Positions 53,936 to 64,000 of a stretch of DNA of 64,000 bases are shown piece by piece. The notes beneath the pieces were generated by a model that was given only the letters and a program-made list of their open reading frames with translations, searched no databases and had not been told where the DNA came from. Position numbers and translations under genes: made by a program. This DNA is from Phycisphaerae bacterium (lineage in GTDB: Bacteria; Planctomycetota; Phycisphaerae; Phycisphaerales; UBA1924): the NCBI GenBank assembly GCA_030429705.1, contig JAUIES010000001.1, positions 1,736,001 to 1,800,000 on the forward strand, in the 5' to 3' direction. The first letter of the stretch is position 1. Every line of letters begins with the position of its first letter.

Positions 53936-53970
53936 GTCGAATATCCAACCCGCGCGACGATTGCTGTGAA

Positions 53971-54015
53971 TACCCCCGCAAGGACTCGAACCTTGAACCC
54001 GCTGATTAAGAGTCA
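53971..54015 (-). tRNA. 3' fragment of a tRNA-Lys(CTT) gene, probable attachment-site remnant
   Basis: Read on the minus strand this is anticodon arm to 3' end of a tRNA. The anticodon loop is CTCTTAA (anticodon CTT), followed by variable region GGGTTC, the T arm CAAGG-TTCGAGT-CCTTG, and acceptor strand CGGGGGT plus A. The 5' half (acceptor, D arm and base 27 of the anticodon stem) is missing; the sequence to the right of 54015 does not continue as a tRNA. This is what remains when an element integrates into a tRNA 3' end. Confidence 0.75.
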
Positions 54016-54023
54016 GAAGGAAG

Positions 54024-54390: not shown

Positions 54391-54396
54391 TATACT
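54391..54396 (+). promoter_or_regulatory. -10 box for the riboswitch transcript
   Basis: TATACT, a near-consensus -10 element, lies 5 nt before the first base of the putative riboswitch P1 stem, so transcription would start right at its 5' end. No good -35 box is seen. Confidence 0.45.
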
Positions 54397-54400
54397 AGAT

Positions 54401-54498
54401 GCGCATCGAGAGTCCCTGGCAGCCTCTGCAACCAGGGCGGCAACCGACCGGCGAACACGCCGTCACGGTGCCGAGGCAGCCCTCTGAGGGATCATGCG
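54401..54498 (+). ncRNA. SAM-I/IV-like riboswitch candidate
   Basis: Shows the architecture and key bases of the SAM-I clan. P1 is CGCAT (54402-54406)/ATGCG (54494-54498), followed by GAGAG. P2 is CCCTGG (54414-54419)/CCAGGG (54432-54437). The core CGGCAACC is at 54438-54445. P3 is GACCGGCG with loop AACA and CGCCGTC. GGTGCC lies at 54467-54472, pairing with GG...CC of the core. The P2 loop bases GCCTC (54422-54426) complement GAGGC (54473-54477), giving the P2-loop/J3-4 pseudoknot of this class. P4 is CCCT-CTG-AGGG (54480-54490). Known members bind S-adenosylmethionine. The gene downstream (54577) is an unknown 77-aa ORF, which is unusual. Confidence 0.6.
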
Positions 54499-54576
54499 GC
54501 GTCACTAAATGACGCACACCGGTCGATGGTCGGCCACCCCCACAGGGCGACATTTACGCACTGAAAGGTGTTGACC

Positions 54577-54810
54577 ATGAATCCAGCCGAAGCGATTGCC
54601 GTAACCGCACAGAACCAACCACAGCCGATTCCGCCGGGCACGAACATGTATTTGTTGACAGGCGTCCGGGAGATCAAACCCTCTGAGGAATCGCTTCACC
54701 AAGCGATTGAGCAACTTGAGCGAGACTTGCCCGAAGACACCCAACCGGCAGAGTTCTACGAGCGGCTGAGGCGCGTGGGGATTCGGATGTTCGCGCCAGA
54801 ATCACTGTGA
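54577..54810 (+). CDS. Small hypothetical protein downstream of the riboswitch candidate
   Basis: 77-aa acidic protein starting at ATG 54577, with GAAAGGTG 6 nt upstream. The sequence (MNPAEAIAVTAQNQPQPIPP..., then SLHQAIEQLERDLPEDTQPA and EFYERLRRVGIRMF) has a Pro-rich front and a helical back half. No family recognised. It is the first ORF of the riboswitch transcript. Its TGA is directly followed by a GTG start in the same frame. Confidence 0.6.
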   Translation: MNPAEAIAVTAQNQPQPIPPGTNMYLLTGVREIKPSEESLHQAIEQLERDLPEDTQPAEFYERLRRVGIRMFAPESL

Positions 54811-55329
54811 GTGTTTCACACAGAGACAGACCACGCGAAGCAGATCGTGGAGGCGGCCAAGCACATCCACAACGCCATGTCTGGGATGCACCCATCCGGT
54901 CCGGTCCCGCCATCTGATGGGGGTGGCCCGACCACAAAGGAAGCCAAGAGAGGAAGCAATGATGAGCAAGGCAAGGATGAAAGAGTTGATGGAACACAAG
55001 GCTTGGATTCTAAAGACAGCGCCACAGAGGGAGAACTTCCCAACCGACGAGGCGTTCGACGAGGCAAGGTCGTACTGGAGGACACATCAGGGCCGACAAC
55101 TCCCGCGACTCGACGAACAGATCCGCTTGTTGGACTCCCCCGAATCATCGTCGTTGACCAAAAAGAAGTAGAGTTCGGCCCATTCACACCAGCACGCGAG
55201 GCCGCACAAGCAAAGAGAGCAAAGCCAAATGAAGAAGCAGAGGCAGAAACAAGAACTGGAAGAACGGGTACGCAAAGAGATGGCCGCACCGGACTGGAGC
55301 CAACGGATGTTCGAGGGCGGACTTCGTAA
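54811..55329 (+). CDS. Possible ORF restarted after the TGA of the upstream small gene
   Basis: 172 codons, open from the GTG that immediately follows the previous stop (TGA-GTG), in the same frame. The first about 30 residues (HAKQIVEAAKHIHNAMSGMH) look protein-like; the remainder is a highly charged, T/G/R-rich sequence that overlaps two better-supported ORFs (54959 and 55229) in another frame. Either a short coupled peptide that ends in an overlapping region, or a chance open frame. Confidence 0.25.
   Translation: MFHTETDHAKQIVEAAKHIHNAMSGMHPSGPVPPSDGGGPTTKEAKRGSNDEQGKDERVDGTQGLDSKDSATEGELPNRRGVRRGKVVLEDTSGPTTPATRRTDPLVGLPRIIVVDQKEVEFGPFTPAREAAQAKRAKPNEEAEAETRTGRTGTQRDGRTGLEPTDVRGRTS
54959..55171 (+). 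CDS. Small basic hypothetical protein
   Basis: 70-aa protein in frame 2. A purine-rich GAGAGGAAG stretch lies just before ATG 54959. The sequence (SKARMKELMEHKAWILKTAP..., RENFPTDEAFDEARSYWRTH) is helical and charged, ending in KKK. No recognised domain. Island gene of phage/plasmid character. Confidence 0.5.
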   Translation: MMSKARMKELMEHKAWILKTAPQRENFPTDEAFDEARSYWRTHQGRQLPRLDEQIRLLDSPESSSLTKKK

Positions 55330-55405
55330 GATGGATCGGATGGCGAAGGAGAAGGGGTCGAAAGTCGCCGGTTCGTACACTTCACGCGATCAGCCCACAC
55401 GATAG
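55229..55405 (+). CDS. Small helical hypothetical protein
   Basis: 58-aa protein in frame 2 after a 57-nt gap, with AGAGAGCAAAG upstream of ATG 55229. A Lys/Gln/Glu-rich helix (KKQRQKQELEERVRKEMAAP) leads into DWSQRMFEGGLRKMDRMAKE. Too short for most callers. No family recognised; probably co-transcribed with the preceding small ORF. Confidence 0.45.
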   Translation: MKKQRQKQELEERVRKEMAAPDWSQRMFEGGLRKMDRMAKEKGSKVAGSYTSRDQPTR

Positions 55406-56277: not shown

Positions 56278-59200
56278 CTAGCCGGTGCTCGATCCGAGGT
56301 TGGAGTTCATGGTTTCTAACACAGCGAAAAGCTGTTCAATGACCGGTTCGTGATCGGCGAACACAGCTTCGGGCCCGCCTGCATTCAAGTTGCTGAACGG
56401 CGGCTCGTACAGGGCCGATGCATCCATCACACCCCGTTCAGTGAGCTGATCGATCACCAGTTCGACGAACCGTATCTGCTGAGTGGTGAGACTTCGGTCA
56501 CTGAGGAACTGGCTGAATGCCAACTGCGCCGCGGCCTGGTCCATGCCGACGAGGCTTCGTACGAAGTGAGGCAGGGAGGGCGATTGACTGCGAACCAACA
56601 GATCGCTGAGGAGCTGTGGTCCGTCGTCCTCACCAATGTCCACCAAGGCGCTTTCGAGACCCTCGAGGTCAGATGGAGTGAGCGCCTCGTTGGTTCGGAG
56701 CCTGTGGATGACGATGTTGTTCATGCGAGCATTGAGAAACTGCTTGACCTTCTTCTCGTATTGCGCTCCGGTCATGGCGGGCATGGCGATAATCTCGCCC
56801 GCTCGAACTCCAATGACCTCGTCCTTGAAGTCCGTGTAGACGATCTTGCGATTCTTCTTGTCAAGGAACGGCATCAGCCCGCGCAGGCGGAGGCGAAGCT
56901 CCTCGAGCCCGTTCAAACCAATCTCCTCCCAGAACCCATTCTCCTGAATGGCAGCAAGATACTCAAGCTGTGCCTGCACGGCGGGGATCGCAGTCTTCTC
57001 TTCGAGCAGCATGGCAATCTCGACGACCCGATGGCGGTGCGTCTCGAAGACTTCGGGTTCGCTCTCGGCCAGGGCGAGCTGCATGCGCAGCGCGGTGAGG
57101 TCGAACATACGGGCTTCGATATCATCCGTGTCGATCTCGCTGGGCAGACCCGCAACCGCTTTCTGGAGGTGTTCAAGGTCGGCGTCACTGAGCTGGTCCC
57201 ACACCGCGCGCTCGCGGAATCGATCGACAGATTCCCGGCGCATGCGGACGATGAAGTTGTCCGGGTTCATCGCCGCGACTTCGCCGTGAAGACCAGACTT
57301 GAGTGATTCTGCAAGAGACGAGTCGGGGTCGAGTTCAGGGGTCGATTGGATGTGCCCGAGCAACTGGACACGGGCGCGGAACAGGCGCGTGCCGAGTGCG
57401 ACACCACCACCGCGTTCGATTCCATCGGGGTTCTCTTTGAAGAAATCAAAGTTGAAGCAGAAATCGAAGATGCGGAAGTCTTGCTTGTCTTCGCCCGGTC
57501 CGAATAGATCGGGACACAACCGTGTGCCGCGCCCGATCATCTGCCAGAACTTGATCTTCGAGTAGACCGGCTTGAAGAAGACCAGATTGGCCACCTCAGG
57601 CACATCGATACCGGTATCGAGCATGTCCACCGAAAGAGCGATGTGAGGCGCTTTGTCCTTTTGCGAGAAGTCATCGAGGATGCTCTGCGGGTAATTGGCG
57701 TAGTGGTCGATGATCCGTGCGAAGTGTCCTTTGTGGTGTGGGTAATGGAAGTTGAATCGATCCTCGATGAACTGCGCGTGATCGTGGTTTCGAGCAAACA
57801 GGATTGTCTTGGCCAGCCGGTCACCGCCCTCGACGGTATGCCCGTGCTCCATCAGGTACTGGAGCACTTTGTCAACCGTGTCTTTGTTGAAGAGCCAGCT
57901 GTTGATCGCGCTCGCGTTGACTTTGTCTGGGAGCGAGTCCGGGGTCACATCGTCGCCCCAGTCGAGGCTTTCCCACTGCTCCTTCTCTTCTTCGCTGAGT
58001 GAGTCGTAGTCGATACCATCGCGTGGAAACCGCAGGTCGACCTGCTCTGCGCGGGGCGGCACGAGGAAGCTATCGGCCACGGCAGTCTCCAGCTCGTAGG
58101 CGTCGGTCGGGACGCTTTTTTCGAGCCCGAAGAGGTCGTAAGTGTTCTTGTCAACCTGCTCTCGGGGCGTTGCTGTCAGGCCCACCAACAGCGAGTCGAA
58201 GTACTCAAAAATCGCACCGTATTTTTGATAGACCGACCGGTGGGCCTCATCGATGATGACAAGATCAAAGTGCCCGACGCTATACCGAGACTCATCTCCA
58301 TTGGTCTCGTCGATAAGACCCATCATGGTCCCGTATGTGCTGACATACACGCGCCCGGTGGAGCCTTTCTCGTTGATGAGGTTGACCGGGCTCGATTCGG
58401 GCAAGTGCGCCTTGAACGCACCCACCGCTTGATTCACAAGTGAGATCCGGTCAGCCAGGAACAATGCTCGCTTCACCCATCCCGCTCGTTGCAGCAGGTC
58501 GACCAGCGCGACCGCGGTTCGAGTCTTGCCTGTGCCCGTCGCCATGACCAACAGTGCAGTTCGTTGAGATGTGGTGAACCGTTCGCTGATGCTGCCGATG
58601 GCCCGCTTCTGGTAGTAGCGCCCGGCAATCGCGTCTTTGATCTTGGTCACATCGAGTGGCTGTTTCTGGCTCCGACGGACGATCAGCGCTTGCAGTTCGT
58701 CCTTCTTGTAAAAGCCTGCGACTTCGCGCGGTGGGTAAGTCGAGTCATCCCACATCCAGGTCGTGTAGCCGCTGGTGTAAAAAATCACCGGTCGCTGGCC
58801 GTGCATTTGCTCGAGACAGTCCGCGTAGAGCTTGGCCTGCTGCTGCCCCTTCCTCGGGTTCAGCGTGGTCTTTTTGGCCTCGACGACCGCCAGCGGTTTG
58901 CCGTCCTCGCCCCACAACACATAGTCGGCATACCCGGTGCCGTTGTTGTTCGGCATGCCCTGGACTTCATACTCCCGGTCCCGCGTTTGGTTGAGTTTCC
59001 ACCCGGCCCGGTTCAGCTCCAGGTCAATCAGCAGGCGTCGGGTCGTCGCCTCGTCGTAGTCGTGCGTGTCCGGGACCTGCTCGTTCTCAGCCTTAATCGC
59101 CGCGAGTTTCTCCCGAAGCTTCACCAGCTCCGCCTCGACCTCGTGCTTTGCCTCCGCTGCTGCATCCAGCTTCGCCTGCATCGCCTCTAACTCGCCGAGG

Positions 59201-59661
59201 CTCGCCGTCGGCTCGCTCGTGTCGGCTGGAACCAGCGATTCGTCGTAGGCGTACCCTTCGAGCTGCTCAGCTCCATTGCGCAGATATGTCCGACCCGCCC
59301 AGTACACCACATGGGACAGTTCCCGCATCACGGCGAGGGCGTCTTCGGGTGTCGGGGCCTTCTTGCCGTGCACGGCCCTGTTGCCCGCCTGCCGCACGAA
59401 CTCCATCTTGGCCCAGACCTTCTCGGGCACCTGGGTCTTGAATTCCGGGCCGTTGAGATACGAGTCCAGCCGGGAGTCGCTCAAGGGCTTGATTGCCTTA
59501 TCCACCTTGTAAATCCGCTTGACGAGCGATTCGAGGCAGTGCCGGGCGTGGAAGCAGGCGCCTCGTGGGTCACGATTGATGGACTGCTCCGCGAGGTTCG
59601 CGCTCTCCGCCACGAACCGGAACTCGTGCTGCAGGAACATGAAGTTCGCGGAGACGGCCAT
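56278..59661 (-). CDS. hsdR: Type I restriction endonuclease subunit R with N-terminal DUF4145 domain
   Basis: 1127-aa restriction/translocation subunit. DUF4145-like domain at about 8-130 (QHEFRFVAESANLAEQSINR), then a coiled-coil (about 150-195). The PD-(D/E)XK nuclease follows (Asp246 in GYADYVLW; Glu261 and Lys263 in VVEAKKT). The SF2 helicase has Walker A MATGTGKTRT (about 373-382), DEAH 471-474, GLTATP, and QMIGRGTRLCPDLFG as motif VI. A C-terminal HsdR domain ends the protein. Start at 59661, 2 nt after the stop of a truncated paralogue. No hsdM or hsdS lies in the window; they may be further right, or absent, in which case this is a solo nuclease-helicase. Confidence 0.9.
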   Translation of the reverse strand: MAVSANFMFLQHEFRFVAESANLAEQSINRDPRGACFHARHCLESLVKRIYKVDKAIKPLSDSRLDSYLNGPEFKTQVPEKVWAKMEFVRQAGNRAVHGKKAPTPEDALAVMRELSHVVYWAGRTYLRNGAEQLEGYAYDESLVPADTSEPTASLGELEAMQAKLDAAAEAKHEVEAELVKLREKLAAIKAENEQVPDTHDYDEATTRRLLIDLELNRAGWKLNQTRDREYEVQGMPNNNGTGYADYVLWGEDGKPLAVVEAKKTTLNPRKGQQQAKLYADCLEQMHGQRPVIFYTSGYTTWMWDDSTYPPREVAGFYKKDELQALIVRRSQKQPLDVTKIKDAIAGRYYQKRAIGSISERFTTSQRTALLVMATGTGKTRTAVALVDLLQRAGWVKRALFLADRISLVNQAVGAFKAHLPESSPVNLINEKGSTGRVYVSTYGTMMGLIDETNGDESRYSVGHFDLVIIDEAHRSVYQKYGAIFEYFDSLLVGLTATPREQVDKNTYDLFGLEKSVPTDAYELETAVADSFLVPPRAEQVDLRFPRDGIDYDSLSEEEKEQWESLDWGDDVTPDSLPDKVNASAINSWLFNKDTVDKVLQYLMEHGHTVEGGDRLAKTILFARNHDHAQFIEDRFNFHYPHHKGHFARIIDHYANYPQSILDDFSQKDKAPHIALSVDMLDTGIDVPEVANLVFFKPVYSKIKFWQMIGRGTRLCPDLFGPGEDKQDFRIFDFCFNFDFFKENPDGIERGGGVALGTRLFRARVQLLGHIQSTPELDPDSSLAESLKSGLHGEVAAMNPDNFIVRMRRESVDRFRERAVWDQLSDADLEHLQKAVAGLPSEIDTDDIEARMFDLTALRMQLALAESEPEVFETHRHRVVEIAMLLEEKTAIPAVQAQLEYLAAIQENGFWEEIGLNGLEELRLRLRGLMPFLDKKNRKIVYTDFKDEVIGVRAGEIIAMPAMTGAQYEKKVKQFLNARMNNIVIHRLRTNEALTPSDLEGLESALVDIGEDDGPQLLSDLLVRSQSPSLPHFVRSLVGMDQAAAQLAFSQFLSDRSLTTQQIRFVELVIDQLTERGVMDASALYEPPFSNLNAGGPEAVFADHEPVIEQLFAVLETMNSNLGSSTG

Positions 59662-59663
59662 GG

Positions 59664-59906
59664 TCAGCCCCACCCTTTGCATGTGCTGCCTTGCAAGCCC
59701 GGATCATGGAGGAACGCTCCAAGGCTCTGGTCGTAGGGCAGTTGGAGCTTGGTATCGTGGCGGTACAGCCAGTGAGCAATCGCTTCGAGTGCAAACCGAG
59801 CGTGGAAGCAAGAGGCGTGTGGATCACCGCGGATGTGCCCCTCGGCCTCGCGTGCCGAGTCGGTGATCACCCGAAGCGACGACGGCATGAAGGCGAAGTT
59901 AGACAC
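59664..59906 (-). pseudogene. Truncated N-terminal domain of a second HsdR (DUF4145 fragment)
   Basis: 80 codons starting MSNFAFMPSSLRVITDSARE. The segment ASCFHARFALEAIAHWLYRH and LPYDQSLGAFLHDP matches the DUF4145 domain that begins many HsdR proteins and is similar to the start of the intact hsdR just downstream (ACFHARHCLESLVKRIY). After about 70 residues the similarity stops and the frame ends 2 nt before hsdR. It is a remnant of a paralogous gene or a recombination scar; it may still be translated, coupled to hsdR. Confidence 0.7.
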
Positions 59907-61470: not shown

Positions 61471-64000
61471 TCACTCCACCCTCAAGACCCCCGCACCGAT
61501 GTCTTCGGCCTCGATATCAATCTCAGTTCCATCGCTAAGCTCGCGGATTTTCAGATCTTTGTTCTGAATGCTGTTTTTTAGCATTGTCTCAAAACCTTTG
61601 GTGCGTCGAGGGCTCGCCCCTTTCTCGTACATGGTTTCAAGTGCCTTCTCCTTCTGTTGGATCAGCCGATCCCAGTGGCTCTTCGCGCGCTGCACACGAA
61701 CTTGTACTGTGTTTAGGTTTTCGGCGTCAAAGCTCCTGGTCATCTGATCGAATTGTGCATCAAGATGTTCACCGAGCTCAGCGTAAGCGATCAGCAATGC
61801 ATCACGATCAAACTTGGGGTAATCCCAGGTTTTACTCTGACGAAGCATGCGATGCATCAATATCTCAGCATCGGCGGAGCTGAACGGTTGTTGGGTGTCT
61901 AAGGACATGATGGCGTACACCATCGTCTCGCGTTTGGCCAAGCCCTTAAACATCCATCGCTGAATGCGGTAGGCATATGTGCCCGATTGGAGTGTCTCAT
62001 CTTGCAAAGAGAGGCTTGAGACATTGTAAAAAGAATGGGTACCGATCCGATTCTGCTCCGTGATCCATCGGATCAGTGGCGACATGTGATTCACAAAGTG
62101 GACCGACCTGCGATCGGCAGCGTTCAGGCGGTCATGGGCTTCGCGGCGAAAAGTAATCGAAAGGTCGCGTTGCCTCAACGGCCTAGCTGCAAGCGATCGA
62201 TCGTTTCTGATGAAATCGTCAAGTGAGGCTTGGGCTTCCCGGCTGAGACGGATGCGCAGGCAACCATCAGCCGGTGTGTTGTGATTGACTTCGGACCCGC
62301 GGAACCTGCGCTGCAGAAAGTCATCCAGGTAATCCTCCAGTTCGTCGGGCTGGATGTAGCGTCCTTTATCCCGGTCTTCTCTGATTTTCTTCTGCACATA
62401 GTCTGACAGTGCGATTAGCGAATCGCCAGAATCTTCCAGCCTTTTGATCTCAAGAAGTTGGTTCTCAATTGCCCGCTCTGTGCTGTCGATGCGAAAAGCC
62501 TCCTCGTCAGCTGTGAGCTCATGACTGAGCAAGTCGATGGTCAGCTTCTGGACCTCTTCACCGATGATGGCCTCAAGATCACCCAAGCTGCTGGAAAACA
62601 GAAGAAGCTTTTCGTGCAGCCGTTCGTAGAGGCGTTCTTCGATGGTATCGGTCACCTTGAAGTTGACGATGTTGAGGACTTCAGACTTCTGCCCGACGCG
62701 ATCAATTCGGCCAATGCGTTGTTCGACCCGCATCGGGTTCCAAGGCAGGTCGTAGTTGACCACCGTATGGCAGAACTGCAGGTCGATACCTTCGCTGCCG
62801 ACTTCGGAGGAAAGGAGAACCCGAGGCCCGTGTGGGTCCTTGAAGCGGTCCAGCTCAGCCCATCGATCTTCGTGAGCCACACCGCCGTGGATAAGGGCAG
62901 TCTCAATCCCGGCGTCTTTAAGCCGCCGCCGTAGGTAATGCAAAGTGCCGCGGTAGTATGCAAAAATCACAACTTTGGGGTCCGGGGTCGTCATCAACAT
63001 CTCAAGCATCATCGCAAATTTGCGATCGTTGCCCTCGAAGTCGTATTCAAGCAGCGCTCTGAAGTCGGGTGCGACCTGTATCTGCTCTTCAACCACATCA
63101 TCCTCGTGATCAAAATCGCTGAACTCCTCGCCCGAGAGCCCTTCGGCCAAAAGCTCGGCCATCTCCTCAAGCGAACCACCAAGGCTGCTCATCCCTTTCT
63201 CGCGGATGTCCGCGGCGATCGTCGGAAGGCAACTTGCAGCCCGGAGCTGCAATCCGAGCACACGGAAGATGTGGAACGGCTCCTTATCGCGGCTGCACCG
63301 CTTCCGAACCAGGCGCAGAATGGACTGATAAAGCTGCATCTCTTCCGGGGTGTATTCGACTTGAAGTACGCGGGGGCGGCGAATGGGTCGCCCTTCCTCA
63401 ACCTGGATGCGCCGAGTGCGGTTGATGTACCCACCAAGCAGGTTCAGCTTTTCCGCAATATCCTGCGCTTTGGCCAGCAGCGCCTTATCGGTTGGATCGG
63501 CTTCAACCTCAGTGAGCAGCTCCAAAAACTGCTCGAACAATGGCGACTTCTTAATGTAAGGGCTGTGCGTCATCCCCTCGACACCGGCCTTGAGCGCCGC
63601 CATATCCGGCGGGGTCAGCGAGAGCGCGTTGAGGGAGGCGATGGCAGGGCGATTGCTGCGCAGCAACTCGTCAAACATATCCTGCGTCTCGAAAAAGTCC
63701 TGGTCGATCAATCGCAACAAGCTGGACAGATCGGTGCTCTTGTTGTTCACTGGGGTTGCCGAGACACAGAGGACACCCGTGTCGTTGTGGCGTGCGAGGC
63801 TCTCGCCAAGGTGAAATGTGGAGGTGGTGGGAGTCCGCATGTAGTGGGCCTCATCAAACACCACGAGGTCAAAGGGCGGGTGGTCATAGTCCCACTCGCG
63901 CAGCTCACGGAGAAGCCGGACCTTCACCGACTCCTTTACTCCTTCGCTCGGCTCTTCGTCAAGGTATCGGAGGTCTCGCTTCGGCGGACGAAGCCCGGAG
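61471..64000 (-). CDS. SNF2/RapA-type DNA helicase, 5' end beyond the window
   Basis: Large SF2 helicase; at least 842 codons, with the frame open to base 64000. Visible: DEAH box (LVVFDEAHYMR), motif III (VSATPVNN), motif IV (VVIFAYYRGTLHYLRRRL), motif V (LLSSEVGSEGIDLQFCHTVV) and motif VI (EQRIGRIDRVGQ). Walker A lies beyond the edge. After the helicase core a long C-terminal region (about 400 residues, helical, e.g. RSVHFVNHMSPLIRWITEQN) resembles those of helicases in defence islands (DrmD-like/RapA-like), with no nuclease motif noted. First gene of the helicase-Hsp70-hsdR unit. Confidence 0.85.
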   Translation of the reverse strand, partial: SGLRPPKRDLRYLDEEPSEGVKESVKVRLLRELREWDYDHPPFDLVVFDEAHYMRTPTTSTFHLGESLARHNDTGVLCVSATPVNNKSTDLSSLLRLIDQDFFETQDMFDELLRSNRPAIASLNALSLTPPDMAALKAGVEGMTHSPYIKKSPLFEQFLELLTEVEADPTDKALLAKAQDIAEKLNLLGGYINRTRRIQVEEGRPIRRPRVLQVEYTPEEMQLYQSILRLVRKRCSRDKEPFHIFRVLGLQLRAASCLPTIAADIREKGMSSLGGSLEEMAELLAEGLSGEEFSDFDHEDDVVEEQIQVAPDFRALLEYDFEGNDRKFAMMLEMLMTTPDPKVVIFAYYRGTLHYLRRRLKDAGIETALIHGGVAHEDRWAELDRFKDPHGPRVLLSSEVGSEGIDLQFCHTVVNYDLPWNPMRVEQRIGRIDRVGQKSEVLNIVNFKVTDTIEERLYERLHEKLLLFSSSLGDLEAIIGEEVQKLTIDLLSHELTADEEAFRIDSTERAIENQLLEIKRLEDSGDSLIALSDYVQKKIREDRDKGRYIQPDELEDYLDDFLQRRFRGSEVNHNTPADGCLRIRLSREAQASLDDFIRNDRSLAARPLRQRDLSITFRREAHDRLNAADRRSVHFVNHMSPLIRWITEQNRIGTHSFYNVSSLSLQDETLQSGTYAYRIQRWMFKGLAKRETMVYAIMSLDTQQPFSSADAEILMHRMLRQSKTWDYPKFDRDALLIAYAELGEHLDAQFDQMTRSFDAENLNTVQVRVQRAKSHWDRLIQQKEKALETMYEKGASPRRTKGFETMLKNSIQNKDLKIRELSDGTEIDIEAEDIGAGVLRVE

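Follow-up and report, generated by a model that had tools for sequence, protein, structure and literature searches.

A 64,000-nucleotide stretch of a Phycisphaerae bacterium genome (the window) very probably contains, by the sequence and pairing of its parts, a genuine variant of the SAM-clan riboswitches, most likely a functional one. We consider it probable that this RNA acts in cis near one end of a genomic island at a tRNA-Lys gene, where it would control the translation of a 77-aa cargo protein. The fold, the relatives, the setting and a hairpin at the start codon were computed for this reading; SAM as the ligand, the OFF direction of the switch and the ORF as its target are what we infer. 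SAM riboswitches are regulators of methionine and SAM metabolism.

Stems P1 to P4, the core CGGCAACC/GGTGCC, intact in the window copy, and a 5-bp GCCTC/GAGGC pseudoknot between the P2 loop and J3/4 follow each other in the order of the SAM-I clan, and a TATACT box lies directly upstream, all as described in the initial annotation. The parts are located as follows.

54391–54396 (+): TATACT, a −10-like box, read from the sequence
54402–54500 (+): SAM-clan aptamer, placed by the scores of covariance models R1 and R3 and by pair counts
54403–54406/54494–54497 (+): P1, from the sequence and the leader fold
54414–54419/54432–54437 (+): P2, an unbroken 6-bp stem
54438–54446/54466–54473, with upper stem 54449–54453/54458–54462 (+): P3
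54480–54483/54487–54490 (+): P4
54422–54426 (GCCTC) and 54473–54477 (GAGGC) (+): pseudoknot strands, pairing 54422–54425/54474–54477
54499–54515 (+): hairpin GCGTCA-CTAAA-TGACGC directly behind P1, from the minimum-energy fold of the leader

Four of the five pseudoknot pairs are free of conflict, because G54473 doubles as the last base of P3. Folded alone, the aptamer stretch has a z-score of −2.41, with 3 of 200 shuffles equally stable, and its minimum-energy structure is an alternative in which GCCUC and GAGGC pair in nested fashion. An excerpt of PMC3764141 lists highly conserved SAM-I nucleotides, 16 of them outside P2; with the numbering transferred to the window copy by us, 14 of these are present, and U4 and A61 differ.

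At gathering scores, no Rfam family matched within the 64-kb window, where the 41.1 bits set for RF01725 were not reached. On 1 kb and with permissive settings, RF00162 gave the best clan match of the window copy (18.3 bits, E 0.43, cut-off 44.4), no Rfam match to RF00634 was reported as best of the clan, and when RF00162 was run against the complete host genome, the window copy was absent from the five matches at E ≤ 10. The check proposed with Rfam's SAM-clan models gave a clan match, and no family at its cut-off in the window. Much higher scores came from models built with the window copy left out: R1, trained on 11 leaders of the metY type from relatives, found it with 59.6 bits (E 1.7e-13 over 64 kb; the runner-up match reached 8 bits), and R3, made from 22 aptamers of a second branch described below, gave 77.5 bits. 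These scores, together with compensatory changes in relatives, bear out a SAM-clan architecture close to SAM-I/IV. The initial annotation would have given way had there been neither a clan hit nor compensatory changes; an RF00162 match and covariation among relatives were both found.

Among the known classes, the window copy shares with SAM-I/IV (RF01725) the core, an unbroken P2 (an excerpt of PMC2864571 describes the SAM-I/IV P2 as free of an internal loop), P4, and the hairpin behind P1, which sits where the Rfam consensus has one; it differs in its P2-loop/J3-4 pseudoknot (PK-1), which SAM-I/IV lacks according to an excerpt of PMC6890682, in its score below the cut-off and in its target gene. 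SAM-I (RF00162) has the same core, P1–P4 order and pseudoknot, but the window copy lacks the P2 kink-turn (internal loop) and scores 18.3 bits against 44.4. The core, PK-1 and a hairpin behind P1 (P5) are also those of SAM-IV (RF00634), which in the same excerpt of PMC6890682 has no P4, unlike the window copy; nor was a PK-2 seen in the latter. We have not filed the element as RF00162 or RF01725, because for either family it falls short of the curated score and departs in one structural feature; its predicted working mode is like that of a SAM-I/IV riboswitch.

A DNA search of 61 genomes gave matches at E ≤ 1 in 59, mostly short and chance-like; core-bearing loci came from 11 further genomes in the same family and from one in the same order, with 71–82% identity over the matched parts. 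The host genome itself holds a second copy (locus L022, RF00162 29.4 bits). An Rfam scan of 12 relative loci returned a SAM-clan match at E ≤ 1 in nine and a score above the cut-off in one; the metY leader L008 passes RF01725 with 41.5 against 41.1 bits. The ORFs behind several relatives, the host copy included, are presumably of the cystathionine-synthase/O-acetylhomoserine-sulfhydrylase type (metY/metB), and tblastn with the host protein placed a metY-type gene behind all 13 leaders. Alignment A2 comprises 11 of these 13 metY-type leaders, with the poorly aligning L009 and L014 left out, and contains 13 cells changed on both sides of a pair versus 3.7 in shuffles.

Across the order, 143 of the 400 genomes searched contain an R1 match at E ≤ 0.1. 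We located 150 matches and classified 149 (a second match in L271, 21.6 bits, was omitted, and the weakest matches are not included); among the matches listed, a metY-like gene follows 91. In a sample of the phylum, model R2 matched at E ≤ 0.01 in 18 of 392 genomes, and among eight loci checked outside the order metY lies behind five (L325, L326, L327, L329 and L330), a search for the gene behind the other three (L322, L333 and L328) giving no hit. The window copy shares with the metY-type leaders of the order the aptamer architecture, the −10-like box and the start-codon hairpin, but has a short P4, no complement to its P4 loop and another gene behind it. The host metY-type copy (G000:C5:37521–37624) scores 109.2 bits with R1, in whose training set it lies, and 76.1 with R3, compared with 59.6 and 77.5 for the window copy, which agrees with the annotation's view of the latter as a variant; since the other metY leaders also reach 58.5–83.4 bits with R3, it is mainly the combination of a low R1 and a normal R3 score, plus the short P4, that sets the window copy apart.

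A second branch emerges from the 58 of the 149 listed R1 matches that lack metY. At least 45 bits are reached by 35 of these; the other 23 are weaker, eight of them, below 30 bits, probably being chance matches. The 35 comprise 18 aptamers before a MoxR ATPase gene (not independent, some being near-identical), three before an SNF2 helicase gene, the window copy itself, five others (L180, L178, L231, L266 and L270) and eight at contig ends. The MoxR-heading aptamers belong to another family of the order, and the short P4 is common to the second-branch aptamers, the window copy included. Alignment A4 contains 23 of the 35, again with the window copy, and omits the near-identical L226, L227, L229, L254–L256, L258 and L259 as well as L174, L249, L266 and L270. 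In A4, 83 cells are changed on both sides versus 25.9 in shuffles (none of 500 reaching this), so that covariation in homologues, proposed beforehand as a check, is found in both alignments. Of the cells, 93.4% are paired versus at most 41.3% with the partners slid, a control that favors the A4 structure, drawn as it was from the same sequences. Cruder measures give 14 pairs versus 10.7 (reached by 20 of 500 shuffles) and 36 further types versus 32.4 (27 of 500). Within the pseudoknot, pairs 21–87 and 22–86 covary, and the whole helix is 81.7% paired.

The genes of this branch bear on the ligand. The aptamers of L307 and L310 are followed by genes for MoxR (PF07728), for a vWA-like product (a sub-cut-off match to PF05762) and for a SAM synthetase (PF02773 and PF00438, both above their cut-offs); PF20030 is above its cut-off in L307 only. 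By tblastn, MoxR is present in 13 longer loci, 12 of them distinct (L345 equals L307), and a SAM synthetase lies 1.8–2.2 kb behind it in L307, L308, L309, L310, L340 and L347. These are all six distinct MoxR loci with at least 1.9 kb beyond MoxR (SAM synthetase by tblastn, and in two of them also by Pfam), the other six distinct loci ending at most 1.1 kb behind MoxR. The operon-like arrays of aptamer, MoxR, vWA-like protein and SAM synthetase are exemplified by three loci.

L307, 11220–6346 (−)
L308, 2953–7641 (+)
L310, 13342–8475 (−)

Because a SAM synthetase follows MoxR in six of six loci of the subfamily, SAM is pointed to as the ligand. The same kind of aptamer precedes a single SNF2 helicase gene in L312 (10614–8565, −), L313 (10045–8007, −) and L219. 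Nearly the same leader also stands before MoxR in L334, L343 and L346, from metagenome-assembled genomes labelled Chloroflexi or Thermoflexus, which may reflect horizontal transfer or misbinning.

How the window copy might act on its gene is suggested by the leader between them, whose relevant elements are listed with the ORFs that follow.

54523–54580 (+): hairpin over the Shine–Dalgarno region and start codon, 54526–54534 and 54536–54538 pairing with 54567–54578
54523–54528 (+): UCGAUG, a possible anti-P1 strand, pairing with CAUCGA at 54404–54409
54577–54810 (+): 77-aa ORF for an acidic small protein, the candidate target behind the aptamer
54962–55171 (+): small ORF, listed by the tool with 84 aa from the ATG at 54917, with a later in-frame ATG at 54962; no Pfam family
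55229–55405 (+): 58-aa ORF; no Pfam family

Of 126 aptamers that score above 45 bits, 121 have a TANNNT motif no more than 17 nt before them, compared with 10 and 7 of 126 at control positions lying another 60 and 100 nt upstream; a search at the window aptamer found no complete sigma-70 consensus site. The start codon lies 76 nt behind the aptamer, and no terminator-like site was found between the aptamer and the gene. The start-codon hairpin hides part of the Shine–Dalgarno region and has z-scores of −1.86 and −2.02, with 13 of 200 and 6 of 200 shuffles equally stable; in 10 of 10 hand-chosen comparator leaders, a hairpin likewise runs into or ends at the start codon. In the metY leaders, the 5′ strand of P1 is complementary to a box beside the start hairpin in 68 of 91 cases (at most 2 of 40 shuffles being equal). 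Such anti-P1 pairing is clear in 8 of 28 second-branch leaders, the 28 being those of 35 matches that are not short of downstream sequence, and in the window it amounts to 6 bp, which is at chance level (48 of 60 shuffles equal). Enforcing the aptamer leaves the computed exposure of the start site unchanged (unpaired fractions of 0.50 and 0.50 for the Shine–Dalgarno region and 0.31 and 0.33 for the AUG) in an energy calculation that cannot handle the pseudoknot.

Given the start-codon hairpin and the usual habit of the clan, SAM would be expected to switch translation off. When SAM is ample, it would bind the P1/P3 pocket and stabilize P1, and with P1 stable the hairpin in the leader would persist and keep the Shine–Dalgarno region and the start codon buried. 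Under SAM scarcity, P1 would open and the start site would be freed, perhaps aided by pairing of the 5′ strand of P1 with the leader.

The 77-aa ORF is the likely target. Neither Pfam nor PADLOC assigned its product to a family, and AlphaFold gave a model of low confidence (mean pLDDT 61.4). The ORFs downstream had been described as unrecognized and at most 77 aa long; in agreement with this they are tiny and matched no known family. A single-sequence search of 150 genomes with the 77-aa protein returned its own genome only, and no relative was found in viral contigs, by single sequence or profile, or in plasmids. A two-row profile matched strongly in G000, the host, and G333 only, among 163 genomes of the family; hits in 12 further genomes (E 0.006 to 0.1) were taken for chance. 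The G333 ORF, which lies behind the aptamer at G333:C1:2802888, is also 77 aa long and shares 25% identity over 64 residues with that of the window (E 9e-05 in a single comparison; 2 of 2000 shuffles equal), and so looks to be a remote relative.

The G333 copy abuts a truncated gene near defense-type genes. We take the truncated gene, which ends 85 bases before the aptamer, to be comM from its motif; an island inserted into comM was considered and rejected, as neither a second gene half nor a repeat appeared in the flanks read. A protein matching a NERD+UvrD defense candidate adjoins the G333 ORF, a ParB-DNA methylase lies 4 kb beyond it, and ORFs about 20 kb away are presumably type I restriction genes. 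The locus is also contained in record CP053450.1, Planctomycetota bacterium isolate PNC22. Another aptamer of this kind from the same family, in G096 (L178; L306 9335–9443, +), precedes a 78-aa ORF without likeness to the 77-aa protein and then a 331-aa ORF for which Pfam returned no family. In L265 (G307, record RFGK01000021.1), the aptamer lies 167 bp behind a tRNA-Phe gene and the contig ends 7 bases later.

The window aptamer lies in a segment with the appearance of an integrated mobile element or genomic island, whose main features are these.

53969–54016 (−): 48-bp 3′ part of tRNA-Lys(CTT), an att-like repeat with an exact twin at C4:1812736–1812783
56278–59682 (−): type I restriction enzyme R subunit (PADLOC REase_I, 586.5 bits)
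61471–63927 (−): SNF2-type helicase, DrmD-like (PADLOC DrmD, 461.7 bits; Pfam Helicase_C and SNF2-rel_dom)
L027 3375–1807 and 1810–632, beyond the window: type I M and S genes (PADLOC MTase_I 643.9 and Specificity_I 252.5 bits)

The twin repeat lies inside an intact tRNA-Lys gene, where there is also a Phage_integrase-family gene, and the two 48-bp repeats are identical without extension on either side. Integrative islands are marked by an integrase beside a tRNA gene and, at their other end, by a direct repeat of the 3′ part of that tRNA; the repeat and the integrase corroborate the accessory, mobile-element setting suggested earlier. The segment between the repeats measures 22.8 kb, and the aptamer sits 0.39 kb inside one end. 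The island also holds a vWA protein, a MerR regulator and an N-formylglutamate amidohydrolase; its type I restriction-modification genes run on the strand opposite to the switch and do not lie behind it, and a link of the switch to methylation status, as suggested earlier, is conjectural. The segment may be composite, because a tRNA-Arg(TCT) gene (L027 3809–3882, −) lies within it. Its G+C content (0.57–0.58) does not differ from that of the flanks (0.58–0.59). A viral origin of the aptamer was also considered and rejected: a core pattern selected 109 viral stretches, 100 of these loci (L034–L133) were scored with R1 and R2, and the top-scoring one, L106 (27.2 bits with R1, 30.8 with R2), seems to be coding sequence, as does L095. 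With a tighter core pattern no viral stretch remained, and a DNA search of phages and plasmids with the aptamer found nothing.

Could the window copy instead be a decaying stray, a leader captured by the island that regulates nothing now, with the 77-aa ORF incidental to it? We regard this as rather unlikely. Its inner P1 pair (54407/54493) is C-C and P3 holds one C-U mismatch, its anti-P1 strand is not clear, and the target is known in two genomes only. However, the copy, at least one-fifth divergent from its closest relatives, nevertheless retains the core, both pseudoknot strands and the 14 of 16 nucleotides from the excerpted SAM-I list; 28 of 31 subfamily pairs plus pseudoknot pairs still form, the start-codon hairpin and the −10-like box are kept, and G333 likewise combines such an aptamer with a 77-aa ORF. 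The C-C inner P1 pair is also found in L265.

A functional RNA might also recognize not SAM but a ligand related to it, or might be a small regulatory RNA acting in trans, which we hold to be improbable. In its favor, the subfamily varies at J1/2 and at the inner pair of P1, and the aptamer lies near the end of the element; yet the pocket nucleotides of the SAM-I excerpt are kept, SAM synthetase genes occur in operons of the subfamily, and a hairpin over the start codon, which lies 76 nt behind the aptamer, favors action in cis. A chance resemblance without any riboswitch, to which the sub-cut-off Rfam score (E 0.43 on 1 kb) might be attributed, is strongly disfavored by the E-value of 1.7e-13 with the independent model R1, the covariation in relatives and their metY context.

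If the preferred reading of a cis-acting SAM switch is true, the SAM level would serve to control mobile and accessory cargo, as represented by the island copy and the MoxR, SNF2 and small-gene subfamily, and the 77-aa gene would become testable with a defined input signal. A broader proposal, which we put forward only tentatively and think doubtful as a general account, is that a subfamily of the clan was recruited from methionine biosynthesis to accessory or conflict modules, with a fall in SAM as the switch-on signal. The modules so run would be small cargo genes in mobile or defense-rich DNA, SNF2 helicases and MoxR-vWA-SAM synthetase operons, and SAM might fall through SAM-degrading phage enzymes or heavy methylation. 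Among the matches listed, open-licence literature, judged by titles and the opening of abstracts, yielded nothing fitting on riboswitches together with islands, ICEs, phage or defense, restriction-modification or Planctomycetes; the main text of PMC7159879, on MoxR-vWA conflict systems, does not contain “riboswitch”, “MetK” or “SAM synthetase”.

The branch of the clan described here is largely missed by Rfam cut-offs, which are passed by 1 of the 12 relative loci and by one, L270, among the 18 loci in the second set, compared with R1 matches in 143 of 400 genomes. L270 (1073–1175, +) is a true RF00162 SAM-I aptamer (59.2 bits) ahead of a 236-aa ORF. A weak match in L175 (2318–2419, +; 32.7 bits) stands ahead of an ORF that we take to be methylenetetrahydrofolate reductase (metF), and L271, L275, L279 and L281 (36–44 bits) have a short P2, no evident P4 and ORFs behind them. 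In the metY leaders, the P4 loop mostly reads GGCGTGG or GACGTGG, with a complementary box, CCACGCC or CCACGTC, downstream. Among the 44 of 91 metY leaders that fit the loop pattern (for example L022, from 1503 to the start codon, L004, L007 and L020), the complement of the 7-mer occurs downstream in 38, versus 20% when it is swapped between different loops, and loop and box likely form a second pseudoknot.
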